From Lachnospiraceae bacterium (lineage in GTDB: Bacteria; Bacillota; Clostridia; Lachnospirales; Lachnospiraceae), in assembly GCA_017484135.1 (NCBI GenBank), contig JAFUTQ010000099.1, positions 1-32,197 on the forward strand: DNA of 32,197 nt, given 5' to 3'. The position numbers and the translations under genes were made by a program. Shown piece after piece: positions 33 through 32,197 of this stretch. The notes beneath the pieces are model-generated. The model saw only the letters and a list, made by a program, of their open reading frames with translations, was not told the origin of the DNA and ran no database searches. Position 1 is the stretch's first letter; each line of letters starts with the position of its first letter.

Positions 33-170
33 GCCCGGGTCAAAAGGTTCACATCGTGAAACGATGTGAACACTTTGCGCAAGAATCGCTTTGGAAAGCT
101 AGCTTTCCAAAACGATTCTTGTGCAAAAAAGTCTATGCCGACTTCGTCGGCATGACCTTTTGACCCCGGC
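33..170 (-). repeat. Structured interspersed element, full copy A
   Basis: A non-coding element upstream of deoC. Outer arms at 33-48 and 155-170 pair over 16 nt with one mismatch. Inside them are three hairpins: 48-57/61-70 (TTCACATCGT stem, GAA loop), a long central hairpin with 74-88/113-127 plus 90-100/101-111, and 135-142/146-153 (ATGCCGAC stem, TTC loop). G79 would face T122, a wobble pair if transcribed, which fits an RNA fold. The order of the hairpins is reversed relative to the copies at 16844 and 32025, so this copy is in the opposite orientation and I call it minus by convention. It has no open reading frame and no transposase. It occupies most of the 209 bases before deoC, so it may lie in that gene's leader. 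I see no promoter in bases 1-32. Confidence 0.85.
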
Positions 171-209
171 CATTTATTCTTAAGTAACCACATTTAGGAG
201 ACAAAACGC

Positions 210-857
210 ATGATGAACAAGGAACAAATTTATCAATATGTGGACCACACCGCACTCCGGCCGATGACATCATGGACGGATATCGTCCGTTTATGTGAGG
301 AAGCAATCGAGCATCATACCGCATCCGTGTGCATTCCCGGCTGCTATGTCAAAAGAGTGCATGAAACCTACGGCGACCGACTTACGATCTGTACCGTCGT
401 TGGATTTCCTCTGGGATATACCAGTACCGCCGGAAAACTTGCCGAAACAGAACAGGCACTTCGTGACGGTGCTTCCGAAATTGATATGGTAATTAATCTC
501 TGCGATGTAAAAAACGGCGCATACGACGCGGTGGAGGAAGAAATCCGTACACTCAAGAATCTGGTGGGAGAAAAGATTCTGAAAGTCATTATCGAAACCT
601 GTTATCTGACCGACGAGGAAAAAATTGCAATGTGTAAAGCGGTTACCGCTGCCGGAGCCGACTATATCAAAACCTCCACCGGATTCGGAACCTCCGGCGC
701 AACGCTCGCAGATGTGAAGCTTATGAAACAGCACATCGGAGCCGGAGTGAAAATCAAAGCTGCCGGCGGAATTCGAAGCAGGCAGGAGATGGAAGCGTAT
801 ATCCAGACCGGCTGCAGCCGGCTGGGCACAAGCTCTGCGGTAAGTATTTTGCGGTAA
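210..857 (+). CDS. deoC: Deoxyribose-phosphate aldolase
   Basis: DERA cleaves 2-deoxyribose-5-phosphate into glyceraldehyde-3-phosphate and acetaldehyde in the cytoplasm, the last step in salvage of deoxynucleosides as carbon. The 215-residue protein has the usual length for the class I aldolase family. The Schiff-base lysine is K154 in DYIKTSTGF. The second active-site lysine is K183 in KIKAAGGIR, and the acidic partner is D92 in EIDMVIN. Two ATG codons are adjacent (210 and 213). The TTAGGAGA ribosome site about 8 nt upstream suits either, and I keep the first. It is followed 29 bp later by cdd, another deoxynucleoside salvage gene, so the two probably form one operon. A structured repeat lies just upstream. 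Confidence 0.96.
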   Translation: MMNKEQIYQYVDHTALRPMTSWTDIVRLCEEAIEHHTASVCIPGCYVKRVHETYGDRLTICTVVGFPLGYTSTAGKLAETEQALRDGASEIDMVINLCDVKNGAYDAVEEEIRTLKNLVGEKILKVIIETCYLTDEEKIAMCKAVTAAGADYIKTSTGFGTSGATLADVKLMKQHIGAGVKIKAAGGIRSRQEMEAYIQTGCSRLGTSSAVSILR

Positions 858-886
858 GTGTTTCCACCTGAAAGGAGGTCGTTCGC

Positions 887-1282
887 ATGAATACTGAGGA
901 GCTGATTCGTCAGGCAAAGGCTGCCAGAGAACACTCTTATTGCCCGTATTCCCATTTCCGCGTCGGCGCAGCACTCTTGTGCGGGGACGGAACGGTATAT
1001 ACGGGCTGCAATATTGAAAATGCCGCATTTTCCCCGACGAATTGTGCGGAGCGCACCGCATTTTTTAAGGCAGTGTCGGAAGGGCATCGTGATTTTAAAA
1101 AAATCGCGATTATCGGAGAGACGGAGGAGTATCTGCCGCCCTGCGGGGTATGCAGACAGGTAATGCTAGAGTTTGTCGATCCATCCCGGTTTGAAGTGGT
1201 CATGGCCGGAAATACGGATGCCTGCAAGGTGGTAAAGCTGGCGGAACTCATGCCCGAATCTTTTGGTTCGAAATTTTTTTAG
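887..1282 (+). CDS. cdd: Cytidine deaminase
   Basis: This enzyme converts cytidine and deoxycytidine to uridine and deoxyuridine, feeding the same salvage route as deoC. The 131-residue length is typical of the homotetrameric bacterial form. The zinc ligands and catalytic glutamate are all visible: C53 and E55 in NCAER, and C86 and C89 in PCGVCRQ. The substrate-binding N-terminal motif YCPYSHFRVGAAL is also present. A strong AAAGGAGG ribosome site precedes the ATG by about 8 nt. I saw no rho-independent terminator directly after the stop codon. The next element is the 6S RNA promoter. Confidence 0.97.
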   Translation: MNTEELIRQAKAAREHSYCPYSHFRVGAALLCGDGTVYTGCNIENAAFSPTNCAERTAFFKAVSEGHRDFKKIAIIGETEEYLPPCGVCRQVMLEFVDPSRFEVVMAGNTDACKVVKLAELMPESFGSKFF

Positions 1283-1305
1283 AAAAAACTAACAGGAATT
1301 ATTCA

Positions 1306-1334
1306 TTGCATTCGGGTACACAATATAGTATAAT
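1306..1334 (+). promoter_or_regulatory. Sigma-A-type promoter of the 6S RNA
   Basis: The -35 box TTGCAT (1306-1311) and the perfect -10 box TATAAT (1329-1334) are separated by exactly 17 bp. The predicted start is near 1341, which places the closing stem of the downstream RNA at its 5' end. Confidence 0.85.
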
Positions 1335-1340
1335 CCTGTT

Positions 1341-1538
1341 GAAAGGTAGAAGGGCAGCCTGAAATGTTCGACACTCCCGCTTTTTTGAACCTACATCTAC
1401 TTTAAAAGGGATTCCTATATCGCCAATTGGATGTCAAGCCTCCGTTTGCAGTGGACGGCAGAAGATTGGGTGCGGTGACCCACCTAGCTTTGCTAGGAGT
1501 CAAAATGGCGGGAAACGGCATTTTGGGTCTTCTACAAA
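1341..1538 (+). ncRNA. ssrS: 6S RNA (RNA polymerase-binding regulatory RNA)
   Basis: I recognise this as a Firmicute-type 6S RNA of about 195 nt. Near the 5' end it carries GCCTGAAATGTTCGACACTC, which resembles the conserved CCTGAGATGTTCGC block of bacterial 6S RNAs, followed by TTGAACCTACATCT. The ends close by pairing GTAGAAG (1346-1352) with CTTCTAC (1529-1535). Internal hairpins include GGGT...ACCC, CCTAGC-TTT-GCTAGG and CAAAATG...GCATTTTG. 6S RNA mimics an open promoter and sequesters the housekeeping RNA polymerase, mainly in stationary phase. The family call rests on remembered consensus and the fold, not on a covariance-model score. The exact 3' end is uncertain. Confidence 0.8.
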
Positions 1539-1592
1539 AGAATCACTACTACAAAAGATAGTTACAAAAGACGGATTACTACCAAAGATGAC
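1533..1592 (+). repeat. Degenerate 30-bp tandem duplication after 6S RNA
   Basis: TACAAAAGA occurs at 1533, 1550 and 1563, and TACCAAAGA at 1580. Spacings of 17, 13 and 17 define a 30-bp unit repeated twice with substitutions. It begins inside the 3' closing strand of the 6S RNA. No reading frame or function is apparent. Confidence 0.6.
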
Positions 1593-1642
1593 AAGATACA
1601 AATAGAGAACTCTGATTCAGAATATGAAACGTAAGAGAAAGG

Positions 1643-1670
1643 GAAGCTGCTGCGAGGCAGCTTCTTTTCC
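1643..1670 (+). terminator. Rho-independent terminator
   Basis: GAAGCTGC (1643-1650) pairs with GCAGCTTC (1657-1664) around a 6-nt loop and is followed by a short T tract. It would end transcripts from the 6S promoter before the SpoIID-domain gene. Confidence 0.7.
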
Positions 1671-1720
1671 GTAACAGGCAGAACGCACGGTATTTTATGG
1701 ACCGATTCAGGGAGTAACCT

Positions 1721-3919
1721 ATGAAATTAAGAAAAAAAATAAGAACACGATTTTTTGTATACATAAGTGCAATTGGTCTTTTGATTCTTCTGACGGCAAC
1801 GCTTCTTGCAACGGGAAGAAACCCCCGGCAAACGGAAGACTGGTCCGTTTATGTGTGGAGGGATGAAATTCCTGCATGGATGGACTTTGCGCGACTTGAC
1901 AGCGAGGACTGGCAGCATAAAATCGGATCCAAGGGACGCATGACAAGAAAAGATGTGGCAGCAGTTCTGGAGCAGATGCATCTGTCCGGTTACATCCAGG
2001 TGCCCGGAAACGGGCGGTATATCACCCGGGAGGATTGGATTGATGTATATGAGCAGCTGCTGGATTATTATGACGAGCAGGAGATTGTCCGAAGGGAAAT
2101 CATCGTGCTGGATATCGAGCCGGAGCTCGTCACCGCAGTCGAGGGAAGTTTCCATTATATAATGCCGGAGTCTGTGCAGCTGGAGCCCTTTTACTGCTAT
2201 CAGGTCTATTGTAGCAGCGATCAGATATTGGGCATCAGCCAAAAAGATGTAAAAGATGCCTTAATCGAAAATGAATATATTATAACATGTCAGGATGGGG
2301 TAGTATCCTTTTTGTGTGACAATCAGGAATATCAGGTTCCCGCTTCCAGTGAGGAGCAGCTTGCGGGGGTGGTGGGCGATCTGGTGTTCTCGGGCGGAAA
2401 AATCACAACCATACGAAAAAAAGAAGATACGATTCTGGGCAAGATGATTGCACTTACCGATACCTATGCAGATATCAAAGGATATGGTCAGGTTCCATGC
2501 AGTGATACCATGAAATTTTATTCCACCTATGACGGAATCCATGAGGCAAAAAAAGAGGAACTCCTGCTGGAAAACATGGAGATCACCTATGTTGTGGCAG
2601 AGGGAAAGGTCTGTGCCTTTTTGATGGAGAAGCCTCCCGATATCGAAAATATCCGCGTACTTCTCTTAAACGGAAAGAGCCCATACTATGAAGACATATT
2701 CATCAATGCAGATGTTCCGGTGGTAGTCAGCGAGCAGGAACAGCAGCTTACGTTGGGAGCAGGGGAATTGCTTGCCGCTTCTTCCTATCAGGAAACGCTG
2801 TCCCGAGCAACGCTTACCGTGTCTGCTGAAGACGGAGTTTCCCCATTATATCTTACGGATTCAAATGGCAACCGCGTCTCTTATGGTTATGAAGGTGTTC
2901 TGGAGCTGCGCAGCTATGCAGAGGGCTATTGCGTGGTAAACGTTGTTCCGCTGGAAAGCTATCTGAAGGGGGTGATCCCCAGTGAAATGCCATCCTCCTA
3001 TGATCCGGAGGCCTTGAAAAGTCAGGCCGTCTGTGCCAGAAGCTATGCCTATATACAGATGATGGAAAATAATTATCAGCGGCTGGGTGCCCATATCGAT
3101 GACAGCACTGCTTATCAGGTATACAACAAACAGGAGCATGGCAGCAGTACGGACCAGGCGGTGGACGACACCTATGGTCAGGTGCTGAAATTTTCAGACC
3201 AGGTCATTGAGGCCTACTATTTTTCGACATCTTACGGTCATACCGGAGATTATTCGGCGTGGAAGCTTGACCCGGAGGAGTATCCATATCTGACGGGAAG
3301 CTGGCTCAGAAATGGGGAAAACGGAATTGATCTTTCGGATGAATCAGCATTTTCCGATTACATCCGAAGTCCGGACGAAAGCTGCTATGAGTCTGATTTG
3401 AAGTATTTTCGGTGGAATACCGAGCTTCATTTTGCAGACCGGACAGAAGCTCTGAAAAACAGAATTACAGACCGGAAATCCATTCAGCCGGATATGATTT
3501 CATATGAGACTCCGAATATGGCAGAGGAGGCAGCTTCCATGAACGGGTTTGGTTCCCTGACCGGAATCAAAGTGAACGGAAGGAGTGAGACCGGAGTCAT
3601 CGCGGAGCTGATCCTGCAGTTTGAATACGGCACAGTACATATCGCGGGAGAATACAATATTCGTCATATTCTGGGTGCAGGTCTGGATCAGATCAACTGG
3701 CAGGATGGCAGCAGCAGTGACTCGATGACCATTTTGCCCAGTTCCTATATTACCGTTATAAGAGTCGATTCAGACACCTATATGGTATATGGCGGTGGAT
3801 ACGGTCATGGACTTGGAATGAGTCAGAATGGTGCACAGCAATTAGCGCTGCAGGGTTGGCAGGCACCGGAAATTCTGCAGCTATTTTATCCCGGAACGGA
3901 TATTTCCCGGATTTATTAA
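1721..3919 (+). CDS. SpoIID/LytB-domain protein, possibly a lytic transglycosylase
   Basis: The 732-residue protein starts with a basic tail and one hydrophobic segment at about residues 11-30, so it is probably membrane anchored and acts outside the cytoplasm. The C-terminal half carries the SpoIID/LytB domain, with VVPLESYLKGVIPSEMPSSY at its start. E422 in PSEMP matches the catalytic glutamate of SpoIID, a lytic transglycosylase that cleaves denuded glycan strands during engulfment. The block GGGYGHGLGMSQNGAQQLA near the C terminus is also typical. The first 380 residues or so have no domain I recognise and make the protein about twice the length of B. subtilis SpoIID. Its job could be vegetative wall remodelling rather than engulfment. 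The start is supported by GGGAG upstream of the ATG. Confidence 0.85.
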   Translation: MKLRKKIRTRFFVYISAIGLLILLTATLLATGRNPRQTEDWSVYVWRDEIPAWMDFARLDSEDWQHKIGSKGRMTRKDVAAVLEQMHLSGYIQVPGNGRYITREDWIDVYEQLLDYYDEQEIVRREIIVLDIEPELVTAVEGSFHYIMPESVQLEPFYCYQVYCSSDQILGISQKDVKDALIENEYIITCQDGVVSFLCDNQEYQVPASSEEQLAGVVGDLVFSGGKITTIRKKEDTILGKMIALTDTYADIKGYGQVPCSDTMKFYSTYDGIHEAKKEELLLENMEITYVVAEGKVCAFLMEKPPDIENIRVLLLNGKSPYYEDIFINADVPVVVSEQEQQLTLGAGELLAASSYQETLSRATLTVSAEDGVSPLYLTDSNGNRVSYGYEGVLELRSYAEGYCVVNVVPLESYLKGVIPSEMPSSYDPEALKSQAVCARSYAYIQMMENNYQRLGAHIDDSTAYQVYNKQEHGSSTDQAVDDTYGQVLKFSDQVIEAYYFSTSYGHTGDYSAWKLDPEEYPYLTGSWLRNGENGIDLSDESAFSDYIRSPDESCYESDLKYFRWNTELHFADRTEALKNRITDRKSIQPDMISYETPNMAEEAASMNGFGSLTGIKVNGRSETGVIAELILQFEYGTVHIAGEYNIRHILGAGLDQINWQDGSSSDSMTILPSSYITVIRVDSDTYMVYGGGYGHGLGMSQNGAQQLALQGWQAPEILQLFYPGTDISRIY

Positions 3920-3995
3920 GTCCTACTTGCCAGTTTTCCGTTTTCATGTTAATCTTTTAAGCGCATAGAAATAGCATTCAGTACGGAGTGAAGCA

Positions 3996-4865
3996 ATGAT
4001 TTGGAAGATGATCGGCAATATAAAGTCGTTTCTGGATAAATGCAAACGGGATAATATTAACGCATTTGCTGCACAGACAGCCTTTTTTATCATTTTGTCC
4101 ATTATTCCCTTTCTGATGGTATTCAGTGCGCTGCTGCAGTACACTCCGGTAACGGAGGGAACGCTTCTTGAAATGGTAAACCGGATTATGCCGCAGTATA
4201 TTGCGCCTTTTATGGTATCCATTATCAATGAGGTTTACACCCGGTCTGTAGGACTCGTGTCCATTGCAGTCATTGTCGCAATCTGGTCCGCTGCCAAGGG
4301 TGTACAATATCTGGTAAACGGGCTGAATGTGGTAAATGAGATCGTCGAGACAAGAAACTGGTTCATCCTTCGATTCTGGGCTGTGATCTATACGATCGTG
4401 TTTGTCATCGCCATTACCGTCACGCTGGTGCTCATTGTATTTGGCAAGTCACTGCAGGGACTGATCGTGAAAAACCTGCCGATTCTGGCTCCTGTTGTAA
4501 ATCTTATCATGGGAAATCGAAGTCCGATTATGCTGGTCTTTCTCATTTTGTTTTTTACCGTTGCCTATACCTGGCTTCCGAATCGGAGGATTCGTATGCG
4601 TTCCCAGTTGCCCGGGGCCATATTGTGTTCCGTTGCATGGTATGTTTTTTCCTTCGGCATATCGGTTTATGTGAATTATTTTAACGGCTTTTCCATGTAT
4701 GGCAGCCTGACTACCATCGTGCTTATTATGCTGTGGCTGTATTTTTGTATCTATATTATGATGCTGTGTGCGGAATTCAATATTGTGTTTAATGATCGCA
4801 TTGAACAGTTGATGAACCGCAGAAAGTATAAAAAGATTAGAGGGGGCAAAAGGTTCACATCGTGA
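3996..4865 (+). CDS. YihY/BrkB-family membrane protein
   Basis: A 289-residue integral membrane protein with about six hydrophobic segments and the YihY family pattern: an N-terminal [19 protein letters not shown] segment, a mid-protein [15 protein letters not shown] block, and a C-terminal [20 protein letters not shown] segment. The family was once annotated as ribonuclease BN, but that assignment was wrong and its role is unknown. A weak GGAGTG ribosome site precedes the ATG. The last eight codons and the TGA stop are supplied by the shortened structured element at 4844-4880, so the C-terminal tail RGGKRFTS is repeat-derived. pheS begins 40 bp downstream. Confidence 0.88.
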
Positions 4866-4880
4866 CATGACCTTTTGCCC
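4844..4880 (+). repeat. Shortened copy E of the structured element
   Basis: Arms GGGCAAAAGGT (4844-4854) and ACCTTTTGCCC (4870-4880) pair perfectly over 11 bp. Between them only TCACATCGTGA and CATG remain, matching one end of the full element joined to its other end, so the middle appears deleted. It lies across the 3' end of the YihY gene and provides its stop codon. Confidence 0.8.
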
Positions 4881-4905
4881 GTTAAATCAAAAAAGGAGAA
4901 CACCA

Positions 4906-5928
4906 ATGAAAGAGAAATTGGAACAAATCAGAGCGCATGCCATTCATGCGATCGAAAATTCGGAAAATTTAGAAAAATTAAATGAAGTGCGCATGGACGT
5001 ACTGGGAAAAAAAGGTGAATTAACAGCAGTTCTCAAAGGAATGAAAGATGTCGCAGCCGAAGACCGTCCGAAGGTTGGACAGTGGGTCAACGAGACGAGA
5101 GCTGTCATCGAAACGAGACTGGAAGAGAAAAAGGCTGCATTTGAAGCGGAAAAACTGCGTGCCAGATACGAAAGCGAGAAAATTGACGTCACGATGCCTG
5201 CCGTTACCTGCCAATGCGGCAGACTTCATCCGGTGACGCAGGTAAGAAACCAGTTGATTGACATTTTTTCAGCCATGGGCTTTGAAATATATGAAGGAAC
5301 CGAAATTGAAACCGATTATTATAATTTTACCGCGTTAAATACCCCGCAGGATCACCCGGCCAGAGATATGCAGGATACTTTTTACCTCTCACCGGAATTT
5401 TTGCTTCGCACACAGACCTCTGCAGGCCAGATTCATGTGATGGAGGCAAAAAAACCGCCGATCAAGGTAGTCTCTCCTGGAAAGGTATTTCGTTCGGATG
5501 ATGATGCCACCCATTCACCAATGTTTACCCAGATGGAAGGTCTTGTGGTAGATCGTGGGATTACTCTGTGTGACCTGAAGGGAATGCTGGATGAATTTGT
5601 ACAGAAAATTTTCGGAGAAGGAACCAAAACACGTCTGCGCCCCTCTTATTTTCCGTTTACGGAGCCTTCGGTTGAGGTTGACGTGAGCTGCTTTCAGTGC
5701 GGCGGAACAGGCTGCAAGCTCTGCAAGGGAACCGGCTGGATCGAGGTTTTAGGTGCCGGAGTGGTAAACCACCGGGTGCTGGAGGGCTGTAACATTGATA
5801 CGTCGGAATACAGCGGCTTTGCATTCGGCATCGGAATTGAGCGGATTGCCATGTTAAAGTACGGAATCAACAATATCAAGCTGTTGTTCGAGTCGGATCT
5901 GCGCGTACTGGAACAGATTGATGATTAA
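4906..5928 (+). CDS. pheS: Phenylalanine--tRNA ligase alpha subunit
   Basis: PheS carries the catalytic class II core of the alpha2-beta2 synthetase that charges tRNA-Phe. The 340-residue length is standard. An N-terminal coiled coil (about residues 1-85) for tRNA binding is followed by class II motif 2 ([18 protein letters not shown]) and motif 3 ([14 protein letters not shown]). A Cys-rich stretch [17 protein letters not shown] sits before motif 3, as in other bacterial PheS. I chose ATG 4906, preceded by AAAGGAGA. An in-frame extension to 4867 would read through the repeat hairpin and is unlikely. pheT follows 23 bp later. I saw no tRNA-Phe T-box leader. Confidence 0.97.
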
Positions 5929-5951
5929 GCTTAAGGAAAGGCAGGTAAATT

Positions 5952-8372
5952 ATGTTAGCACCGTTAAGTTGGTTAAAGGACTATGTTGAGATTGATGTGA
6001 CCCCAAAGGAGCTGGAAGAAAAATTATTCTCCTGCGGGTTTGAAGTAGAAGAGCTGACAGAGGTCGGAAAAGATATCAGGAATGTTGTAGTGGGGCTGGT
6101 AGAGCAGTGCGAGCCCATTCCCGACACACACTTAAATCTGTGTCAGGTAAATGCGGGGGCGCATGGCACGTTTCAGATCTGCTGTGGTGCCGATAATGTA
6201 AAGACCGGCGGCAAGTATCCGCTGGCATTGATCGGTGCAACGGTTTATGCCACCGAAAAGGATCATGTGACCATTGAGGGAATCATGGAGATCAAACAGG
6301 GAAAGCTGAGGGGGTATGATTCCTACGGCATGCTCTGTTCCGGTACCGAGCTGGGGCTGACCGAGGATTTATATCCCGGTGCCGGCTACAACGGACTGCT
6401 TGTTCTGCCGGAGGATGCCGAAATCGGTGCGGATGTCAAGCCGCTTCTGGGCATGGATGACTGGATATATGATATTGCAATTACCGCAAACCGACCGGAT
6501 TGCCAGAGCATTTACGGAATCGCCAGAGAAGTTGCCGCAGTCCTTGGAAAAGAATGCAAGGCACCGGCGCTTGATTTTACAGAGACTGCGGTTACCAAAG
6601 CGCCGTTTTCCGTGAAGGTGGATGCGCCGGAGCTCTGTCCGCGCTATATTGCCCATTATGTATATGATGTTACCATCGGAGAATCTCCCGCATGGATGCG
6701 GCGGAGACTGGCCCTGACTGGCTGCAGTGCAATTTCTAATGTGGTGGATATTACCAACTATGTATTAAAGGAACTTGGGCAGCCCATGCATGCCTTTGAT
6801 TATGCTTATCTGGAGGGAGATCAGATTCAGGTGCGAAGGGCAGCGGACGGGGAGAAGATCGTTACCTTAGACGAAAAGGAGTTTACCTTAAACAACAATA
6901 ACCTGGTAATCTGCGATGGCGTAAAGCCGGTGGCACTGGCTGGGATTATGGGCGGCTTAAACTCCGAAATCGTGGACACCACCTCTGAGGTCATGTTCGA
7001 AGCGGCAAAATTTGTCCGGGATAATATTCGCAAGAGCTCCAGAGCCCTGGGACAGTCTTCGGATTCCAGCGCCCGTTTTGCCAAGGGCGTGGATGAGTAC
7101 ACGACGGTCATGGCCATGAAGCGCGCCCTGCATCTGATCGAAGAATTAGGCTGCGGCAAGGTTTCCTCGACCCACATGGATGTCAATACCGGAAATTCCG
7201 TTGAACCGCATGCGATGAAGGTAAGCATAAGACAGGTAAACGGCGTTCTCGGGATCCGGGTGCCGGATGAGGACATTGTGCGCATTCTAAAGGCCTTGCA
7301 GTTTGCCCCGGAGTTAAACGGCGATGAACTGACCCTTCAGATCCCTGCTTATCGGGAAGATATGGATTCCTATCCGGATGTTGCGGAGGAAGTGATTCGT
7401 ATGTACGGCTATGAGCATGTAACCCCTACATTCATGTCTACCGCAGAGGTTACCATGGGCGGTCTGAATCTGAAACAGAAAACCGAGCTGAAGCTGAAGC
7501 GTGCGCTTTGCAGCGCAGGTGCTTACGAAGGGATTCATTATTCCTTTTTCTCGCCGGCTGATCTGGATCTGCTGCGACTTTCGGAGGATGCAGCGGAACG
7601 GAATGCCATTTCGCTTCAAAATCCGATTAATGCAGATCTTTCCCTGATGCGCACAACGCTGGCTCCTCAGATGCTTCATGCAATTGCGCGGAATCAGAAA
7701 AACGGGATTCTCGAAGGCAGAATTTTTGAACTGGGCAATATTTTTATACCAAAGTCTCTGCCGTTGACGGAATATCCAGACGAACGGGAAACCCTGTGCG
7801 TCGGTTTGTTTGGGGAAGCGGAGTCTTTCTTTACGTTAAAGGGAATGACGGAAACCGTAGCAGAAACACTGTGCCTTACCTTTACCTATGAACCCGGATC
7901 AAAACCCTTCCTTCATCCGTATCAGACAGCCATTGTGCGATGTGAGGGAATCGAAGTGGGGTATCTGGGCAAGCTTGCCTACGAGCTGCAGGATGAACTG
8001 GATATGAGAGTGCCTGCCTATCTTATGGAATTGGATGTAAGAGGCCTGTCCCGGTGGTACGGAAAAGAGCAGCGATTTGTTCCGATCCCCAGATTTGCAG
8101 AGGAAAAACGGGATTTCGCCTTCGTTGCGGACAAACAGGTTTCCTGCGCCGAAATTGAAAACGGCATCCGGGAGGCCTGCGATTATGTGACAAAAGTTAC
8201 CCTGTTTGACGTATATGAGGGGATTCAGCTGCCGAAGGATAAAAAGAGCATGGCATTTTCGGTCGTCTTTACTCCGCGTGAAGAGGCGCTTTCCGCCTCC
8301 TTCATGGAGCAGCTTGTGGAAGACATCCTGAAGAACCTGAACGAAAAGCTCGGCATCTCGCTCCGGGCATAA
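5952..8372 (+). CDS. pheT: Phenylalanine--tRNA ligase beta subunit
   Basis: The 806-residue beta subunit has the full bacterial layout: N-terminal [11 protein letters not shown], an EMAP-type tRNA-binding domain (about 40-150), the B3/B4 editing domain that hydrolyses Tyr-tRNA-Phe (about 210-380), the B5 domain (about 405-480), the inactive class II-like core, and a C-terminal FDX-ACB anticodon-binding domain (about 713-806, starting [15 protein letters not shown]). It pairs with PheS from the adjacent gene. The ATG at 5952 follows AAGGAAAGGCAGG. No truncation or frameshift is seen. Confidence 0.97.
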
Positions 8373-8407
8373 CGGAAAACAGCAGACACCAGAAAAAGGA
8401 TGAAAAT

Positions 8408-9474: not shown

Positions 9475-9514
9475 GATAGTTAAGTGATCAAGGCTTTCAG
9501 ATAAGGAGAGAACT

Positions 9515-12174: not shown

Positions 12175-12244
12175 AAGCCATATGGGATGATGTGATGGGC
12201 GAAAGGTTCACATCATGCAACGATGTGAAATAAATTTTATGCAA
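12164..12244 (+). repeat. Rearranged copy C of the structured element
   Basis: Contains GGGCGAAAGG followed by the element's TTCACATC/GATGTGAA hairpin (12207-12214 with 12222-12229). TTGCATAAAAT (12164-12174) pairs with ATTTTATGCAA (12234-12244), matching the central-stem base seen in the copy at 32025. The GTCGGC hairpin and the GGAAAGC cap are missing. A second, competing pairing joins ATGATGTGA (12187-12195) to TCACATCAT (12208-12216). Confidence 0.6.
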
Positions 12245-14247: not shown

Positions 14248-14300
14248 AAATAACCTTTTTGTTTTAAGATATGAAATAGAATCGGTTTTATGCATATGAT

Positions 14301-14330
14301 ATGATATGAACCTTTTGCCCCTCATATCAT
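14301..14330 (+). repeat. Remnant copy D of the structured element
   Basis: GAACCTTTTGCCCC (14308-14321) matches one end of the element. It is bracketed by ATGATATGA (14301-14309) and TCATATCAT (14322-14330), a perfect 9-bp inverted repeat sharing the GA. This is what would remain if the interior and the other end of a full copy were deleted. It lies between two small divergent genes. Confidence 0.65.
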
Positions 14331-16837: not shown

Positions 16838-16843
16838 GAATAA

Positions 16844-16991
16844 ATGATTTGAGAGTCAAAAGGTCATGCCGACTATGTCGGCATAGACTTTTTGCACAAA
16901 AATCGTATTGGAAAGCTCGCTTTCCAAAGCGATTTCTTGTGCAATGTGTTCACATCGTTTCACGATGTGAACCTTTTGACCCTCAAATCAT
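16844..16991 (+). repeat. Structured interspersed element, full copy B
   Basis: Outer arms 16844-16864 and 16971-16991 pair over 21 nt with one mismatch. The order inside is the GTCGGCAT-type hairpin, the long central hairpin capped by GGAAAGCTCGCTTTCC, then the CACATCGT-TTC-ACGATGTG hairpin, the same order as the copy at 31958. The central stem (ATCG...CGAT) differs from the other copies but still pairs. The outermost 10 bp of the arms (ATGATTTGAG side) are unique to this copy. It fills the leader between the promoter and yicC. Confidence 0.88.
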
Positions 16992-17019
16992 AAATGTGTC
17001 TGCACGAAAGGGTGAGGCT

Positions 17020-24066: not shown

Positions 24067-24096
24067 TCAGGTGAATTCGAAAGGATACACGGCATC

Positions 24097-24810: not shown

Positions 24811-24813
24811 TAC

Positions 24814-25860
24814 ATGAAGACCTTCAGGATTAAGGAAAATGAAGCCGGGCAGCGGCTGGACAAATACTTAAAAAAACTGTTAAAGGAAGCGCCGCCCGCC
24901 TTCCTGTACAAGATGCTTCGCAAAAAGAATATCGTCTTAAACCAAAAGAAGGCCAACGGAACAGAAAAGCTGACAACCGGAGATGCGGTAACGTTTTATC
25001 TTTCCGATGATACCTTCTTAAAGTTTCAGGGAGGACAGCCTTCGGAAAAAACACTGCTTACGCAGTACCCGGAGCATCCCTTGGACGTGGTCTATGAGGA
25101 TGCCGACTGTCTGATCATCAATAAGCCCGCCGGGCTGCTTTCTCAGAAGGCAAAATCGGGCGATGTTTCCGCCAATGAATATATCATCGGCTACCTTCTT
25201 CACAGGAACCGGATCACCCCGGAGGAGCTTGCCACCTTTAAGCCCTCCGTCTGTAACCGTCTGGACCGCAACACCTCAGGACTTCTCATCGCGGGAACGA
25301 CCCTCCGGGGACTGCAGGAATGGTCCGAGGCCTTAAAGAGCCGCAGCCTGGAAAAATACTACATGGCTCTCGTGAACGGTGTCGTAGAGCAGGACGGACA
25401 CCTCAAAGGGTATCTGCACAAAAATCCCAGCGATAACCGGGTATATATTTCGGAGACTGCGAATACCGGGGACGGATCCGAAAGCAGCTATATTGAGACC
25501 TCTTATGAGGTGCTGGAGCAGTACCGGGATGCATCCCTGTTGAAGATTCATCTGATTACCGGGCGGACGCATCAGATCCGGGCACACCTTTCCTTTATCG
25601 GACACCCGATTATCGGAGATCCGAAATACGGAATTCCGGAGATAAATCGCAGCTGGAAGAAAAAAGCCGGTGTAAGCCGACAAATGCTGCATGCCTACCA
25701 GCTTTCGTTCCCGGATCATCCGGAAAAGCGCAGCATTACCGCGGAGCTGCCGGAAGACTTTCAACGAGCCTTACAGTATGCCAAAGCTGCAAGCACAGCC
25801 AAACACAAAGGAGAAGATCATGCTTATTTATCTGATGCGCCACGGAGAAACCGATTATAA
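24814..25860 (+). CDS. RluA-family (RluC/RluD-like) pseudouridine synthase
   Basis: A 348-residue protein with an S4 domain (about 12-60) and a RluA-type catalytic domain, with D151 in NRLDRNTSGLLIAG and the substrate block LITGRTHQIRAHLSFIGHPI (all catalytic motifs intact). It probably modifies 23S rRNA. The C terminus carries a short non-family extension that overlaps the downstream gene by 41 bp. The final residues (AYLSDAPRRNRL) are read from DNA that also encodes the start of that gene, so the tail may have arisen by stop-codon loss. Confidence 0.9.
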   Translation: MKTFRIKENEAGQRLDKYLKKLLKEAPPAFLYKMLRKKNIVLNQKKANGTEKLTTGDAVTFYLSDDTFLKFQGGQPSEKTLLTQYPEHPLDVVYEDADCLIINKPAGLLSQKAKSGDVSANEYIIGYLLHRNRITPEELATFKPSVCNRLDRNTSGLLIAGTTLRGLQEWSEALKSRSLEKYYMALVNGVVEQDGHLKGYLHKNPSDNRVYISETANTGDGSESSYIETSYEVLEQYRDASLLKIHLITGRTHQIRAHLSFIGHPIIGDPKYGIPEINRSWKKKAGVSRQMLHAYQLSFPDHPEKRSITAELPEDFQRALQYAKAASTAKHKGEDHAYLSDAPRRNRL

Positions 25861-26467
25861 TAAAAGGGGGCTGATACAGGGGCGGCTTGATATCCCGTTA
25901 AACGAAAATGGCTTCATGCTTGCCCGCCTGACCAGAGAGGGCTTTGACCGGGAGGGACTCGCCTTTGATTACTGCTATTGCAGTCCCCTGATTCGCGCCA
26001 GACAAACGGCAGAGATTTTGCTTGCCGGAACGAATACGCCCATTATCTATGACAATCGGATTTGTGAGATGAATTTTGCCGAGGGCGAGGGGGTATTGTT
26101 AAAGGACATTTCCGTAAAGCCGGAATACCAAAACATATACAACCTCTTTCATGCCCCCGACAAATACCGGGCAACGGAGCTGGGAGAGGATTATGAGGTT
26201 TTGTTTCAGCGGGTGGAAAGCTTTTTATGGGAGGAGCTTGCCCCTCATGAAAGAGACTATGAGCGGGTGCTGGTCTGCTGTCACGGCGGGATTATCCGGG
26301 CCTTTTTAGCCTTCATGAAGAAGTTAAGGTTAAGTGAATTCTGGGATAATCATCAGCCGAACTGCAGTGTAAACATCATTGAGCTAAAGGATGGACAGCT
26401 TGATATTCTGGAGGAGCACAGGATCTACTATGAGCTCTCGGAGGACAGGAAAGGAACGATACTTTAA
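25820..26467 (+). CDS. Histidine phosphatase (phosphoglycerate mutase-like)
   Basis: The 215-residue cytoplasmic protein belongs to the histidine phosphatase superfamily. The phosphorylated residue is H8 in LMRHGETDYN, supported by YCSPLIRARQTAEILL and the second histidine in CCHGGIIRAF. The substrate is unknown, since relatives act on sugars, cobalamin precursors or nucleotides. I start at 25820 after AAAGGAGAAG, which lies inside the end of the preceding gene. The frame upstream to 25691 is only a shadow of that gene. Its stop codon overlaps the recU start (TAATG). Confidence 0.9.
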   Translation: MLIYLMRHGETDYNKRGLIQGRLDIPLNENGFMLARLTREGFDREGLAFDYCYCSPLIRARQTAEILLAGTNTPIIYDNRICEMNFAEGEGVLLKDISVKPEYQNIYNLFHAPDKYRATELGEDYEVLFQRVESFLWEELAPHERDYERVLVCCHGGIIRAFLAFMKKLRLSEFWDNHQPNCSVNIIELKDGQLDILEEHRIYYELSEDRKGTIL

Positions 26468-27000
26468 TGGCAACATGGAATTCCAGAGGCCTTCGGGGTT
26501 CTGCCCTGGAGGACTTCATCAACCGCACCAACGAGAAATATGCCGAGCACAGACTGGCGGTAATCCAGAAGGTGCCAACCCCCATTACCCCCATCAAAAT
26601 CGACAAGGAAAACCATCAGATCACACTGGCGTACTTTGAACAGAAAAGTACCGTGGATTACATCGGGGTGGTGCAGGGGATTCCGGTATGTTTTGATGCC
26701 AAGGAGTGTCACACCGACACCTTTCCGCTGGCAAATATCCATGCACATCAGGTTGCGTTTATGGAAGGATATGAACAACAGCAGGGGATCGCCTTTTTAA
26801 TCATCTTTTTTACCCATCGGGACGAATATTACTACATGCGCTATCGTGAAATGAAAAAATTCTGGGATCGTGCTCTGGAAGGCGGACGGAAAAGCTTTCG
26901 CTATGAGGAGCTGACACCGCAGTTTTTCTTTACCTCCAAATCCGGCGTGCTGGTGCCGTATTTAGATGAAATTCAGCTGGATCTGAACCTTAGGGATTGA
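26467..27000 (+). CDS. recU: Holliday junction resolvase RecU
   Basis: RecU cleaves four-way DNA junctions in recombinational repair and chromosome segregation in Firmicutes. The 177-residue protein begins WNSRGLRGSALEDFINRTN and has the core block QKSTVDYIGV with D64, then D77-x-K79-E80 in CFDAKE, followed by FPLANIHAHQVAFM. B. subtilis RecU uses an E-x-K form at the second position, and here it is D-x-K. In B. subtilis recU is paired with the penicillin-binding protein gene ponA, which is not present here. The stop codon is part of the -35 box of the his promoter. Confidence 0.93.
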   Translation: MATWNSRGLRGSALEDFINRTNEKYAEHRLAVIQKVPTPITPIKIDKENHQITLAYFEQKSTVDYIGVVQGIPVCFDAKECHTDTFPLANIHAHQVAFMEGYEQQQGIAFLIIFFTHRDEYYYMRYREMKKFWDRALEGGRKSFRYEELTPQFFFTSKSGVLVPYLDEIQLDLNLRD

Positions 27001-27025
27001 CAAGGTACGCATATTTTGTTATGGT
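26997..27025 (+). promoter_or_regulatory. Histidine operon promoter
   Basis: A perfect TTGACA (26997-27002, overlapping the recU stop) and TATGGT (27020-27025) are 17 bp apart. The predicted start is near 27032, within the tandem repeat ATGGTAGC (27021-27028 and 27029-27036). Confidence 0.75.
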
Positions 27026-27037
27026 AGCATGGTAGCA

Positions 27038-27049
27038 CACTAAAGTGTT
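27038..27049. promoter_or_regulatory. Palindrome at the his operon start, candidate operator
   Basis: ACACT (27038-27042) and AGTGT (27045-27049) form a perfect inverted repeat around AA, just after the predicted transcription start of hisZ. Its position fits repressor binding. TrpR-like HisR/YerC regulators control his genes in some Firmicutes, but I cannot assign this site to them. No His T-box leader is present, as the leader is only about 43 nt. Confidence 0.4.
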
Positions 27050-27074
27050 TGAACATAACATTACGGAGGCTTCC

Positions 27075-28100
27075 ATGAAAAACCAGTTATTGCATACCCC
27101 CGAAGGCGTGCGGGATATTTACGGAGAAGAATGTGAGCGGAAATTAGAGCTTCAGAGCCGCCTGTATAAGGCTCTGGGCAAATTCGGATATCACAGTATC
27201 CAGACACCTACCTTTGAGTTTTTCGATGTTTTCAGCAGGGAAATCGGAACCACTCCCTCAAAGGAATTATACAAATTTTTTGACCGGGAGGGCAACACGC
27301 TGGTACTGCGCCCGGACATCACGCCGTCCATAGCCCGCGCGGCGGCCAAATACTATACGGATGAGGATATGCCCATCCGCCTGCGTTATCAGGGAAGCGT
27401 TTTTATCAATAACAGCAGCTATCAGGGCAGACTCAAGGAGTGCACCCAGCTGGGCGCGGAGCTGATCGGAGATGATTCGGTGGACGCAGATGCAGAGATG
27501 ATCACCATGACCATTGAAGCATTGAGAAATTGCGAGCTGAAAGAATTTCAGATCAGTGTGGGACATGTGGAATTTCTTCAGGGACTGGTGGAGGCTGCAA
27601 ATCTCAATGAGGAGGAAGCGCAGACCATCCGGGAGCTGATCGTGAACAAAAATTTCTTTGGCGTAGCAGAGGAAATTGCCAAATATTCCCTGCCGGAGGA
27701 GTTAACGCAGCTGTTTGGTATGCTGGGCAAACTCTATGACCGGACTGCAGATTTTTCCGCTGCCGGAGCGCTTGCGGCAAATTATTCGAAGGTGCTTTGC
27801 GCAATCCGACGGCTGGAACAGCTGGATGAGATCCTGCAGGAGCATGAGGTGGCATCCTATGTCTCCTACGATCTGGGGATGCTGACGGATTATCACTATT
27901 ATACCGGAGTGATTTTTGCCGGATACACCTATGGAACTGGGGAACCCATTGTGCGCGGGGGCCGTTACGACAATCTGCTCGAACATTTTGGCAAAAAAGC
28001 GCCCTCCATCGGCTTTGCCTTTGCGGTAGACCAGATCATGACTGCGATTTCCAGACAAGGTCTGCAGACTGCAACAGAATCCACGAGCTCGTATTTATGA
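27075..28100 (+). CDS. hisZ: ATP phosphoribosyltransferase regulatory subunit HisZ
   Basis: HisZ is a HisRS-like protein without aminoacylation activity that combines with short HisG to form the active, histidine-inhibited first enzyme of the pathway. The 341-residue protein has class II synthetase-like motifs (LHTPEGVRDIYGEE, LRPDITPSIARAAAKYY, PIVRGGRYDNLL) but no anticodon-binding domain. The adjacent hisG is the short form, so the pair is consistent. I start at 27075, 6 nt after CGGAGG. An in-frame ATG at 27045 lacks a ribosome site. Confidence 0.94.
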   Translation: MKNQLLHTPEGVRDIYGEECERKLELQSRLYKALGKFGYHSIQTPTFEFFDVFSREIGTTPSKELYKFFDREGNTLVLRPDITPSIARAAAKYYTDEDMPIRLRYQGSVFINNSSYQGRLKECTQLGAELIGDDSVDADAEMITMTIEALRNCELKEFQISVGHVEFLQGLVEAANLNEEEAQTIRELIVNKNFFGVAEEIAKYSLPEELTQLFGMLGKLYDRTADFSAAGALAANYSKVLCAIRRLEQLDEILQEHEVASYVSYDLGMLTDYHYYTGVIFAGYTYGTGEPIVRGGRYDNLLEHFGKKAPSIGFAFAVDQIMTAISRQGLQTATESTSSYL

Positions 28101-28116
28101 CAGGAGAGGAATTAAT

Positions 28117-28773
28117 ATGGAAGACAGATATTTGACATTTGCACTGGGAAAAGGCCGTCTGGCCAAGCATACCATGGATTTGTTTGAAAAAATCGGCATT
28201 TCCTGTCAGGAGATGAAGGATAAAACCACACGGAAGCTGTTGTTTGTCAACGAGGAGCAAAAGCTGCGCTTCTTTTTGGCAAAGGGTCCCGATGTTCCTA
28301 CCTATGTGGAATACGGTGCCGCGGACATCGGCATCGTAGGACGGGATACGATTTTAGAAGAGGCACGAAATATTTACGAGGTGCTGGATCTTGGCTTTGG
28401 GAAATGCCGGATGTGCATCTGCGGACCCCAAAGCGCCGAAGCGTATTTACATCATCATGAGCTGATCCGTGTTGCGACAAAATATCCGAGAATCGCCAAG
28501 GATTATTTTTATAACAAAAAGCATCAGACAGTGGAAATCATCAAGCTGAACGGTTCCATTGAGCTGGCACCCATCGTAGGGCTTTCCGAGGTCATCTGCG
28601 ATATTGTAGAGACGGGCTATACACTAAAGGAAAACGGTCTGGTCGTGCTGGAGGAGGTTTGTCCGCTTTCCGCGCGTATGGTGGTGAATCAGGTCAGCAT
28701 GAAGATGGAGCATGAACGGATCTCGAAACTGATCAACGATTTACAGGCAGCACTGCAGGAGGAGGAACCATGA
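28117..28773 (+). CDS. hisG: ATP phosphoribosyltransferase catalytic subunit, short form
   Basis: HisG condenses ATP with phosphoribosyl pyrophosphate, the first committed step of histidine synthesis. The 218-residue length identifies the short form that needs HisZ and lacks the C-terminal regulatory ACT-like domain. Family blocks include FALGKGRLAKHTMDLFEKIG, YGAADIGIVGRDTI and the late TKYPRIAKDYF. The substrate-loop residues ELNGSIELAP appear as KLNGSIELAPIVGLSEVI. AGGAGAGGAAT precedes the ATG. It overlaps hisD by ATGA. Confidence 0.96.
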   Translation: MEDRYLTFALGKGRLAKHTMDLFEKIGISCQEMKDKTTRKLLFVNEEQKLRFFLAKGPDVPTYVEYGAADIGIVGRDTILEEARNIYEVLDLGFGKCRMCICGPQSAEAYLHHHELIRVATKYPRIAKDYFYNKKHQTVEIIKLNGSIELAPIVGLSEVICDIVETGYTLKENGLVVLEEVCPLSARMVVNQVSMKMEHERISKLINDLQAALQEEEP

Positions 28774-30071
28774 GAATCTTAGAGCTGACACCGGAAACAC
28801 AGGAAAATATATTGGAAAAGCTGCTCAAGCGAAGCCCGAACAGCTACGGAAGCTATGAAGCAAGCGTAAATGAAATTATCGCCAATGTCAGAGAGCACCG
28901 GGATGCCGCGGTTTTTGACTATACCAAAAAATTCGACGGAGCCTCGATTGATGCGTCCTCCATCGTAGTTTCGGAGGAGGAAATCCGTAAGGCCTATGAT
29001 CTCGTAGACCCGAAGCTGTTGGAGGTCATCCGCAAGGCAATTGTAAATATCCGCAAATACCATGAAAAGCAGCGGCAGCAGAGCTGGTTTACCAGCGAGG
29101 ACAACGGCATTATTTTAGGGCAGAAGGTTACCCCCTTAGAGCGGGTCGGCGTCTATGTACCGGGCGGAAAAGCCGTCTATCCTTCTTCGGTGCTGATGAA
29201 CATTCTGCCGGCGAAGGTTGCCGGTGTGGATGAGATCATCATGACGACACCGCCGGGAAAGGACGGAACGGTCAGCCCGTCCACGCTGGTGGCTGCCAGA
29301 GAGTCCGGAGCAAACCGCATCTATAAGGCGGGCGGCGCACAGGCAATCGCGGCAATGGCGTTTGGAACGGAGAGCATTCCAAAGGTAGACAAAATCGTGG
29401 GGCCCGGAAATATCTATGTAGCTCTTGCGAAGAAAGCGGTATTCGGTTACGTGAGCATCGACTCCATTGCGGGTCCAAGTGAAATTCTGGTGCTTGCGGA
29501 TGAGTCCGCAAATCCCAGATACGTTGCTGCGGATCTTTTGTCACAGGCAGAGCATGATGAAATGGCATCCGCCATTCTGATCACCACCAGCCGCGAGCTG
29601 GCGCAGCAGGTATCGGAGGAAGTGGAACAATTTCTGACCCGGCTTTCCCGGACCCAGATCATACAAAAATCGCTGGACAACTATGGCTATATCCTGATTG
29701 CGGACACCATGGAGGAGGCAATCCGCACCGCAAATGCCATTGCCTCAGAGCATCTGGAGATCGTCACCAAAAATCCGTATGAAGTGATGACAAAGATTCG
29801 CAATGCAGGCGCGATTTTTCTCGGGGAATACAGCAGCGAGCCGCTGGGCGATTATTTTGCAGGCCCCAACCATGTACTGCCCACAAACGGTACGGCAAGA
29901 TTTTTCTCCGCGCTTTCGGTGGATGATTTTATCAAAAAATCCAGTATCATCTCTTATTCCGAGGAGGCGTTAAGGGCTGTATCCCGGGATATTATACAGT
30001 TTGCGGAGTGCGAGCAGCTGACCGCTCATGCCAACTCCATCCGGGTGCGATTTGAGGATGAAGCAGAATAG
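28770..30071 (+). CDS. hisD: Histidinol dehydrogenase
   Basis: HisD performs the last two oxidations from L-histidinol to L-histidine with NAD and zinc. The 433-residue protein is of typical length and carries VGVYVPGGKAVYPSSVLMN, KAGGAQAIAAMAFGTESIPK, DSIAGPSEILVLAD, SQAEHDEMASAI, with the catalytic and zinc-binding residues SEHLEI and GPNHVLPT. It starts within the hisG stop codon, and hisB starts 10 bp after its own stop. Complete, with no unusual feature. Confidence 0.97.
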   Translation: MRILELTPETQENILEKLLKRSPNSYGSYEASVNEIIANVREHRDAAVFDYTKKFDGASIDASSIVVSEEEIRKAYDLVDPKLLEVIRKAIVNIRKYHEKQRQQSWFTSEDNGIILGQKVTPLERVGVYVPGGKAVYPSSVLMNILPAKVAGVDEIIMTTPPGKDGTVSPSTLVAARESGANRIYKAGGAQAIAAMAFGTESIPKVDKIVGPGNIYVALAKKAVFGYVSIDSIAGPSEILVLADESANPRYVAADLLSQAEHDEMASAILITTSRELAQQVSEEVEQFLTRLSRTQIIQKSLDNYGYILIADTMEEAIRTANAIASEHLEIVTKNPYEVMTKIRNAGAIFLGEYSSEPLGDYFAGPNHVLPTNGTARFFSALSVDDFIKKSSIISYSEEALRAVSRDIIQFAECEQLTAHANSIRVRFEDEAE

Positions 30072-30081
30072 GAGGTTTGAT

Positions 30082-30675
30082 ATGGAAAAGAAACGAAAAG
30101 CCGAAACAACCAGAAAGACAAAGGAAACCGACATTTCCCTCACATTGAATCTTGACGGCAGCGGCCAGTCGGAGGTGGAAACCGGAATCGGATTTTTTGA
30201 TCACATGCTTACAGGCTTTGCCAAGCATGGGCTCTTTGACTTAAAGGCAAAGGTCATCGGGGATCTCGCGGTGGACTGCCATCATACCATTGAGGATACC
30301 GGCATCGTGCTGGGACAGACGATTGCCGCCGCTCTGGGCGACAAAAAAGGCATCCGGCGCTACGGCAGCTGCATGCTTCCGATGGACGAGACTCTGGTGC
30401 TTTGCGCCGTGGATTTGTCGGGGAGACCGTATCTTTCCTTTGACGCAGAATTTACCACAGACCGCGTCGGATATATGGACACCGAGATGGTAAAGGAATT
30501 TTTTTATGCCGTTTCCTATTCCGCCGGGATGAACCTTCACCTTAAGGTATTGACACCGGGGAATAATCATCATATGATAGAGGCAATGTTTAAGGCCTTT
30601 GCCAAGGCACTGGATGCGGCCACCATGGTGGATGCGCGTATTACCGATATTTTGACGACGAAAGGTAGTTTATAA
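30082..30675 (+). CDS. hisB: Imidazoleglycerol-phosphate dehydratase
   Basis: The enzyme dehydrates imidazole glycerol phosphate to imidazole acetol phosphate, using manganese. The 197-residue protein is a single dehydratase domain without the N-terminal phosphatase seen in enteric bacteria. Metal-binding motifs are present in [47 protein letters not shown] and [19 protein letters not shown] start at 30082 after TAGGAGGT. The frame upstream to 30028 lies within hisD. The next gene starts 1 bp after the stop codon. Confidence 0.96.
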
Positions 30676-30676
30676 A

Positions 30677-31957
30677 ATGAATCACAAAAATATTGTTGCC
30701 ACCATGTTTTTGAAGGATGGCACCGCAGTCCGATCCATCAGGGATTTTACCAAGGTCGGCGAGTGGAAGGAGCTTGCGAAGCTCTACAGTGACAGCGGAG
30801 TCGACAAAATTTATGTCTTCGACCTCTCGGAAACGGACGAGGAGCATGAAAAAAATCTTCACATCATAAAAGAAATCTTTCGGGTGGTTGAGATTCCGCT
30901 TTGCGCAGGGGGAAACATCAACCGGATGGAGGATATCAAAAAATACATCTATGCGGGCTGTAAGCAGGTCATGTTAAACGGCTCAAAGTCGGTCAGTGTC
31001 TCGCTTGCAGAGGAAGGGAGCAAACGCTTTGGAAAGGATCGCATTTTGATTTCCGTAGAAAATGTAGACTTTCTGTTCAAAAATCAGGAAGTGCTGGATC
31101 AGTATTTTCATGAGATGCTGGTATTGGATCCGGATTGTATCGAGAGCGTTGAAAGCATTACGAATATTCCCTTTGTGGTAAAATACGACAGCTATGACGA
31201 AGAGCAGCTGGTTCAAACCTTAAAGCGGGCAAATGTGCGGGGGATCTGCGGACCCTTCATCGACGATCCGGAGACAGACATCATGTCCATGAAGCTTCGG
31301 TTTTCCCAGTTTGACATCCGGATGGATCACTTCGCGCCGGAGTTAAAGTGGAGCAGTTTAAAGACCAATTCGGACGGACTGATTCCGGTTATCGTGCAGG
31401 ATTATAAAAACGCAGAGGTACTCATGCTGGCATACATGAATGAAGAGGCCTTTCATGCGACAATTGCCACCGGAAGAATGCATTACTACAGCAGAAGTCG
31501 GCAGTCCCTCTGGGAAAAAGGTGAGACCAGCGGTCATTTTCAATATGTGAAATCTTTGATCGCAGACTGTGATTTTGATACCATTCTGGCGAAGGTGTCC
31601 CAGATTGAGGCCGCCTGCCACACAGGTGCACGAAGCTGTTTTTTCAATGACATTGTGAAAAAACAGTATGTAGACAAAAATCCTCTTCAGGTATTTGAGG
31701 ATGAATACCGGGTCATCACAGACCGAAAGGAGCACCCCAAGGAGGGTTCCTACACGAACTATCTGTTTGATAAAGGGATTGATAAAATATTAAAAAAAGT
31801 GGGCGAGGAAGCGACGGAGATCGTAATCGCAGCCAAAAATCCGGAGCCTCAGGAAATTGTCTATGAAATTTCCGATTTTCTCTATCACATGATGGTGCTG
31901 ATGGTGGAACGAGGGGTTACCTGGGAGGATGTAGTGGAAGAATTGGCTCAACGGTAG
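30677..31957 (+). CDS. hisIE: HisF/HisA-like barrel fused to HisI-HisE
   Basis: A 426-residue fusion. Residues about 1-215 look like a HisA/HisF-type phosphate-binding barrel: [15 protein letters not shown] aligns with the family start and [20 protein letters not shown] with its first phosphate site. But F11 stands where HisF has its catalytic Asp11, and the second aspartate position reads ISVE128. No clear second phosphate loop is seen, so the barrel is probably inactive. Residues about 230-325 are HisI (phosphoribosyl-AMP cyclohydrolase), with D297-C298-D299-F-D301 and zinc cysteines C314 and C321. Residues about 345-426 are HisE (phosphoribosyl-ATP pyrophosphatase), with E377, E378, E381, K387 and ExxDFLYH ending at H404. 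Steps 2 and 3 should be active. A barrel role as scaffold or ligand sensor is inference. Confidence 0.88.
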
Positions 31958-32197
31958 TCTTTTCATAAATAAATGGGGGGATGTTTGGTTGATGCCGAGG
32001 TCAGGTTGGGTTTCGGAAAAAGGTCATGTCGGCGTAGCCGACATTGACTCTTTGCATAAAAATCCCATCGGAAAGCTAGCTTTTCGATGGGATTTCTTAT
32101 GCAAAGGGTTCACATCGTTTCACGATGTGAACCTTTTTCCGAAACCCAACCTGACCTCGGCATCAACCAAACATCCCCCCATTTATTTATGAAAAGA
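31958..32197 (+). repeat. Structured interspersed element, full copy F, in a 240-bp palindromic structure
   Basis: Arms 31958-32024 and 32131-32197 are reverse complements over all 67 bases. The interior (32025-32130) has the family hairpins: GTCGGC-GTA-GCCGAC, a long central hairpin from TTTGCATAA to TTATGCAAA capped by GAAAGCTAGCTTTT, and CACATCGT-TTC-ACGATGTG. The left arm starts at the first base after the hisIE stop codon, and the right arm ends at the last base of the window. No gene lies here. The structure could end the his transcript, though no T tract is seen. Confidence 0.85.

Follow-up and report, generated by a model that had tools for sequence, protein, structure and literature searches.

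How does a short hairpin element come to carry long complementary flanks that differ from copy to copy? The question is raised by the window, by which we mean the whole 32,197-nucleotide (nt) stretch analyzed here, which is all of contig C109 of a Lachnospiraceae bacterium genome (2.55 Mb in 116 contigs, 83% complete). The window contains three full copies of an element of about 120 nt and three reduced ones. A sequence-only reading of this DNA had described an inverted flank private to each full copy and to one remnant, and had proposed that the element either inserts into existing palindromes or, perhaps through template switching, writes an inverted copy of its flank. That observation is right in kind and mostly wrong in the examples chosen from the window. 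Inverted flanks are carried by a large minority of the copies in the window's genome, and they are best explained as template-switch copies.

Copies of the element in the window

The core of the element consists of three hairpins and a closing stem, AAAAGG/CCTTTT. The three full copies (A, B, and F) had been described as sharing this arrangement, and covariance-model matches, folds, and the covariation reported below all bear the description out. The six loci are as follows.

33 to 170, reverse strand: copy A, with its core at 41 to 162 (reverse strand) and the stem GGGTCAAAAGG; covariance-model match, fold, and arm score
4835 to 4889, no strand: internally deleted derivative, with the end GATTAGAGGGGGCAAAAGG, a shortened hairpin, and the opposite stem
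12187 to 12229, no strand: truncated copy, with one end and hairpin 3
14296 to 14330, no strand: remnant D, internally deleted, with the terminal repeats ATGATATGA/TCATATCAT on either side
16840 to 16995, forward strand: copy B, with its core at 16857 to 16978 (forward strand); covariance-model match, fold, and end repeats
31958 to 32197, forward strand: copy F, with its core at 32017 to 32138 (forward strand); covariance-model match and perfect 67-nt arms

Flanks were assessed with an arm score, the outward complementarity of the two sides of a copy, which was compared with that of all mixed pairs of sides. At copy A, the GCC(G/C) lying past the common GGGTCAAAAGG adds 3 to 4 nt of pairing and brings the score to 12. 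This is within chance, as the 95th percentile of mismatched pairs is 14 and their maximum is 21, and the arm that had been taken as specific to this copy is not significant. The flank ATGATTTGAG/CTCAAATCAT attributed to copy B is not specific to it either. It holds the terminal repeat of the family, GATTTGAGG, together with a direct target duplication, ATAAAT (16840 to 16845 and 16990 to 16995), which encloses the copy's terminal repeats GATTTGAG (16846 to 16853) and CTCAAATC (16982 to 16989). Since GATTTGAGG is common to 34 of the 87 copies analyzed in this genome, ATGATTTGAG is a family end and not a private flank. The inverted bracket around remnant D likewise resolves into terminal repeats, a variant of the family's end, on either side of the internal deletion, and so none of copies A, B, and D is a case of inverted-flank copying.

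Copy F is the only copy in the window with a copy-specific flank. Its inverted arms (31958 to 32024 and 32131 to 32197) are perfect over 67 nt, as had been claimed; the left arm starts directly after the stop codon of the open reading frame at 30677 to 31957, and the right arm terminates exactly at the end of C109, which is also the end of the window. Because the arms reach the contig end, their outer part could have been lengthened or made by the assembler.

Fold and covariation of the core

Copy F folded as RNA gave a z score of −27, and copies A and B folded as DNA gave −14 each; no shuffle was equally stable. Among the 39 copies from which the covariance model was built, changes on both sides were found in 27 of 47 core pairs, compared with 8.7 ± 1.8 in shuffles and with 6 to 12 pairs in slid controls. 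This strong covariation, together with the mostly intergenic position of the copies, often close to stop codons, would be expected if selection on an RNA stem, for 3′-end stabilization or a similar role, maintained and lengthened the arms through ordinary compensatory mutation. We consider this very unlikely. Among non-Watson-Crick core pairs, G.U is not in excess over A.C (18 versus 27), which gives no indication that one RNA strand has been selected; moreover, perfect copy-specific arms of 37 to 47 nt, and identical duplications in both arms, described below, would be hard to reach stepwise. No known RNA family accounts for the element. The sole Rfam match above the gathering threshold in the window was 6S, which does not lie on the element; copy B had subthreshold matches only, and in five loci with element copies from relatives nothing matched on the element. 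The family is absent from Rfam.

Copy number, distribution, and MITE-like features

A search of the window's genome with the covariance model yielded 87 copies for analysis, which is a lower bound (150 of 1,409 candidates were scored). Opposite-strand duplicates, the overlapping partial matches C49:28546 and C1:69124, and the ten weakest matches (E above 3e-5) were left out. The 87 copies are dispersed over many contigs and nearly all are intergenic; by simple codon-usage gene calls, only 2 of the 87 overlap a gene by more than 30 nt. Beyond this genome the family is sparsely distributed. The element is present in 6 of 397 genomes of the bacterial family, namely the window's own, G005, G198, G262, G329, and G380, and among 40 relatives searched it was found in G005 only, one of seven members of the genus. 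The copies analyzed in the other genomes were 30 of at least 42 in G198, 10 of 11 in G262, all 20 in G329, and all 7 in G005. Exact hairpin patterns had no match in genome_contigs or viral_contigs, from which records near the window's genome were possibly excluded. A degenerate pattern likewise had none in viral_contigs, and in genome_contigs it matched a record from the MAG Lachnospiraceae bacterium SC0379_S9_8 as well as a contig from Catellatospora.

The ends of the element in the window's genome are GATTTGAGGGG, and the 34 copies mentioned above have GATTTGAGG, with up to two mismatches, on both sides. Exact direct duplications of 6 to 8 bp were found at 6 of these 34 two-ended copies, copy B included. 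In G198 the ends are TTTGAGTTTCCCCATTTTT, and TTGAGTTTCC (up to two mismatches) lies on both sides of 29 of the 30 copies analyzed; 18 of these 29 are surrounded by a direct duplication that is exact over 8, 9, or 10 bp (controls, 0 to 0.12%). By its shared terminal inverted repeats, its direct target duplications, and its short, dispersed, and mostly intergenic copies, the element is MITE-like. Pattern searches for an autonomous partner showed, by eye, no end pair 1 to 3 kb apart among the matches listed for G198, and none in the window's genome with a pattern that was one base too long and gave most of its matches at three mismatches.

Copy-specific inverted arms across genomes

Whether other copies have inverted flanks of their own was assessed in 83 copies of the window's genome, with copies F, L078, L088, and L098 excluded because their arms lie at, or 2 nt from, a contig end. 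In 38 of these 83 copies the score is higher than in any of 6,806 mismatched pairs. The mean score of matched arms was 21.7, whereas that of mixed pairs was 4.5, and none of 10,000 permutations (mean, 4.7 ± 0.38) attained the matched mean. Counting six bases of the closing stem, examples of arms lying inside contigs are 70 nt with two mismatches (L085) and, among perfect arms, 47 (L060), 45 (L065), 44 (L099), and 37 nt (L071). A weaker version is present in G329, in which 6 of 20 copies exceed all 380 mismatched pairs. No copy did so in G198 (0 of 30) or G262 (0 of 10), and the best arm score among the seven copies of G005 was 15.5, below the mismatched maximum of 22. In G198 the element takes the form of an ordinary MITE, with direct duplications and without copy-specific inverted arms.

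Long inverted repeats could be produced by contigs folded back on themselves during assembly, and the arms of F, L078, and L098 do reach a contig end, while that of L088 stops 2 nt short of one. As a general explanation, we regard such an artifact as highly improbable: the 38 copies remain after these four are removed, the sequence outside the two arms differs, many arms contain mismatches, and arms are also found in G329, an assembly of about 40 contigs.

Insertion into the center of palindromes already in place, such as terminator hairpins, which covers the first of the two proposals made from the window, is disfavored. Many arms do begin near a stop codon, which lies within 12 nt in 22 of 38 long-arm copies, but the proportion does not differ significantly from that in short-arm copies (18 of 49; P = 0.055), and four-T runs immediately beyond the arms (2 and 4 of 35) are near the 7% background. 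Inverted repeats of comparable size (arm of at least 18 nt, spacer of up to 320 nt) are almost lacking elsewhere, with 2 found in about 280 kb outside the elements compared with 58 touching elements; the loci in this count partly overlap, and a third match, which was the core of another copy, was dropped. As long palindromes are otherwise nearly absent, the arms are probably not preexisting targets. No inverted copy was found at the informative comparison sites described in the next section either, and prior palindromes are accordingly a very improbable source of the arms.

Polarity of the arms at gene ends

If one arm is a copy of the other, arms that overlap a gene should indicate which is the older. 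Relatives in the genus are about 70% identical to the window's genome, and intergenic DNA is not expected to align, so the comparison is limited to gene ends, one downstream motif, and one paralog. Four copies with an arm overlapping a gene end were compared. The clearest is L065, whose arm contains the final 21 nt of a BNR-type gene. The same genome has a paralog of this gene (L210, C37:39893) that is 82% identical over 446 nucleotide columns and aligns into the stop codon; at the same gene end the paralog has no element and no inverted copy (best match, 15 of 30), whereas the far arm of L065 repeats the gene end in inverted form at 21 of 21 positions.

At L035, the gene-side arm includes the last eight codons of a DJ-1/PfpI gene, and relatives align 3 to 6 codons into it. 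The inverted copy of this gene end matches at 22 of 24 positions, compared with only 12 to 15 of 24 for the best inverted match within 300 nt downstream in 14 relatives. The motif CCAACATATTTT lies about 10 to 30 nt after the gene in genus members and, by eye, about 25 nt after the far arm of L035. The third copy, L070 (C42:3661), is a weak case. Its arm includes the last five codons of a threonine synthase gene, relatives align 2 to 4 codons into the arm (to residue 492 to 494 of 495 in all 17 of the relatives listed), and the inverted copy matches at 17 of 24 positions versus 11 to 15 of 24 in the 17 relatives. At L066, the gene end is not conserved among the compared sequences. The gene-side arm is therefore the older sequence, clearly in L065 and L035 and weakly in L070, and these alignments make it clear that in L065 and L035 the far arm has been newly copied in inverted form.

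Matched changes, composition, and inheritance of arms

A second line of evidence comes from changes shared by the two arms of a copy. In L025, GATTTGAGGGGC occurs twice in each of the two arms, and further matched changes in both arms were seen by eye in L068, L075, L033, L019, L076, L064, and L089. That two identical changes arose independently in the two arms is implausible, so one arm must template the other. These changes and the polarity cases together support the second proposal made from the window, inverted copying of the flank with template switching as one possible route. Its extension to an inverted flank as the usual signature of insertion does not hold, given the ordinary direct duplications found here and in G198.

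The insertion reaction itself could nevertheless write the inverted copy, as in a fold-back or hairpin-primed transposition in which the inverted arm is the equivalent of a target duplication. Such a reaction agrees with the outer edges of the arms, where no direct repeat of 5 to 10 bp was found in any of the 35 long-arm copies inside contigs, and with the far arm of L065, which is perfect and extends into the gene end. It does not account for the exact direct duplications that do occur (6 of 34 and 18 of 29 copies in the two genomes), and it would require later rewriting to give matching duplications within both arms. We view this reaction as an unlikely source of the arms.

The composition and distribution of the arms also bear on their origin. 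Read on the inward strand, 36 long arms contain 43.8% G and 11.4% C, compared with 24.5% and 20.4% in the flanks, and G exceeds C in all 36. This G-richness is not predicted by plain copying of local flanks. Some arms may be explicable as growth from the G-rich end GATTTGAGGGG through repeated duplication, and the G excess reported for template switching may point in the same direction, although the excess here may have other sources. By eye, some arm motifs seem common to several copies (F with L098 and L070, and a GACCGGGG-CAGGATGGGGA group). As several arms look shared among copies, most long arms need not derive from the present flank, which suggests that many were inherited and not copied at their current site.

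Proposed mechanism

We propose that the hairpin element is MITE-like and that snap-back template switching repeatedly rewrites and lengthens its arms, a reading to which we assign a probability of roughly 0.58. The element would be a short noncoding DNA mobilized in trans by a putative DDE-type transposase and inserted with ordinary direct target duplications, which were seen at part of the copies. The three strong hairpins and the closing stem would be expected to stall replication. A stalled nascent 3′ end that had just copied one arm could then fold onto the other arm, presumably of its own strand, copy that arm, continue into the flank beyond, and rejoin its template. This single process could keep the arms complementary while both change, place an identical duplication or insertion in both arms, and write one flank, gene ends included, in inverted form onto the opposite side. 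The rewritten arms would then seem, from the motifs compared by eye, to move with the element and so give rise to subfamilies with different ends. Several observations speak against this reading: the G-rich arms, the lack of direct repeats at the outer edges of the 35 long-arm copies, the weakness of the L070 case, the arms that look shared, and the fact that no copy in G198, G262, or G005 exceeds all mismatched pairs. Pure insertion of the copied arm would also predict a displaced target duplication, and inspection by eye revealed none in L017, L028, L034, or L035.

A related scheme, which we think unlikely, would place the fold-back copying within the element's own insertion or replication cycle. 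Each copy of such a mobile element would acquire inverted host sequence and take it to new sites as a new end, and its terminal repeats would thereby keep changing.

The origin and upkeep of long perfect stems is an old question, and this family addresses it with a single genome in which the same hairpin occurs dozens of times, in many cases with arms of its own and in a few with recognizable inverted gene ends. Template switching would thereby become countable in a bacterium, and the family suggests how a mobile element alters its own ends. We found no account of inverted-arm rewriting of such an element in the one open-access library searched.

Comparison with known systems

Foldback transposons such as Galileo are eukaryotic and larger than the element described here, and the REPIN/RAYT system is defined by a GTAG/CGTC-tagged REP pair and a RAYT gene. 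As described in the sources on Galileo, foldback transposons resemble the present element in their long and variable terminal inverted repeats (PMC3573991, PMC4079207). The element also resembles the bacterial MITEs and small repeats such as Correia/NEMIS, ERIC, RUP, and YPAL, which are described as noncoding and shorter than 200 bp, with terminal inverted repeats, direct target duplications, stable stem-loops, and many, mostly intergenic copies; the targets of YPAL span or adjoin dyad symmetry (PMC2229807). Unlike those repeats as they are described there, the element has a three-hairpin core and complementary arms that vary from copy to copy, some of them with inverted host gene ends.

The mechanism proposed here is the same as that established for quasipalindrome mutation in Escherichia coli, in which a polymerase that has stalled takes the nascent strand as its template and makes an inverted repeat more perfect (PMC7202029). 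The E. coli case, as presented in that source, concerns a 4-bp change in engineered reporters, whereas the changes here would involve whole arms, tens of bases long, in a family of elements. Template switching has also been put forward as a process that both generates RNA hairpins and maintains them; the features described are perfect stems formed by a single event, compensatory changes, insertions that extend stems, and more G-C than C-G pairs (PMC8794818). That proposal, as set out in the source, was drawn from rRNA and microRNA genes; here it would extend to a mobile bacterial element in which the G excess is strong.

Composition and extent of the long inverted arms

In the 36 long-arm copies of the element in the window's genome, the inward arm strand is strongly G-rich and C-poor. 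At locus L078 (1368-1758), inverted arms of 134 nt reach the end of the contig with mismatches in their inner part and a perfect outer part; these arms represent either a recent extension or a fold-back introduced by the assembler.

Short end pairs, an adjoining partial copy, and a distant pattern match

Five end pairs in G198, a family genome that also carries the element, are smaller still (63 to 112 nt) and have the same terminal repeats as the element; no core match at these sites was among the matches listed. They are likely to be miniature derivatives of it.

Short end pairs in G198
C1:275532-275594
C4:198512-198574
C22:56633-56695
C24:13578-13647
C5:101226-101337

At locus L009 (1444-1497), a full copy is directly adjoined by a partial copy in inverted orientation. 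The degenerate hairpin-3 pattern also has a match in a distant bacterium, Catellatospora coxensis (L106, 3359-3381).

Other repeats and conserved sequences

Nine loci of the window's genome share another interspersed repeat of ~75 to 150 nt, apparently unrelated to the hairpin element.

Copies of the second repeat
L031 1-166
L026 968-1038
L060 2125-2230
L072 518-594
L080 1565-1647
L086 2380-2462
L094 1404-1541
L038 1348-1471
L101 1577-1724

Downstream of the DJ-1/PfpI gene, loci L035 (1752-1920) and L073 (1260-1429) are 69% similar over ~170 nt, and the motif CCAACATATTTT recurs there across several members of the genus; an Rfam search of both loci gave no match. In G262, another element-carrying family genome, a Clostridiales-1 RNA (L154, 1675-1835, minus strand) lies ~50 nt from an element copy.

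Two further features were identified in the window.

Non-element features of the window
1353-1533, plus strand, 6S RNA, the sole above-threshold Rfam match in the window
30677-31957, plus strand, one fused protein with domain matches to His_biosynth (partial), PRA-CH, and PRA-PH
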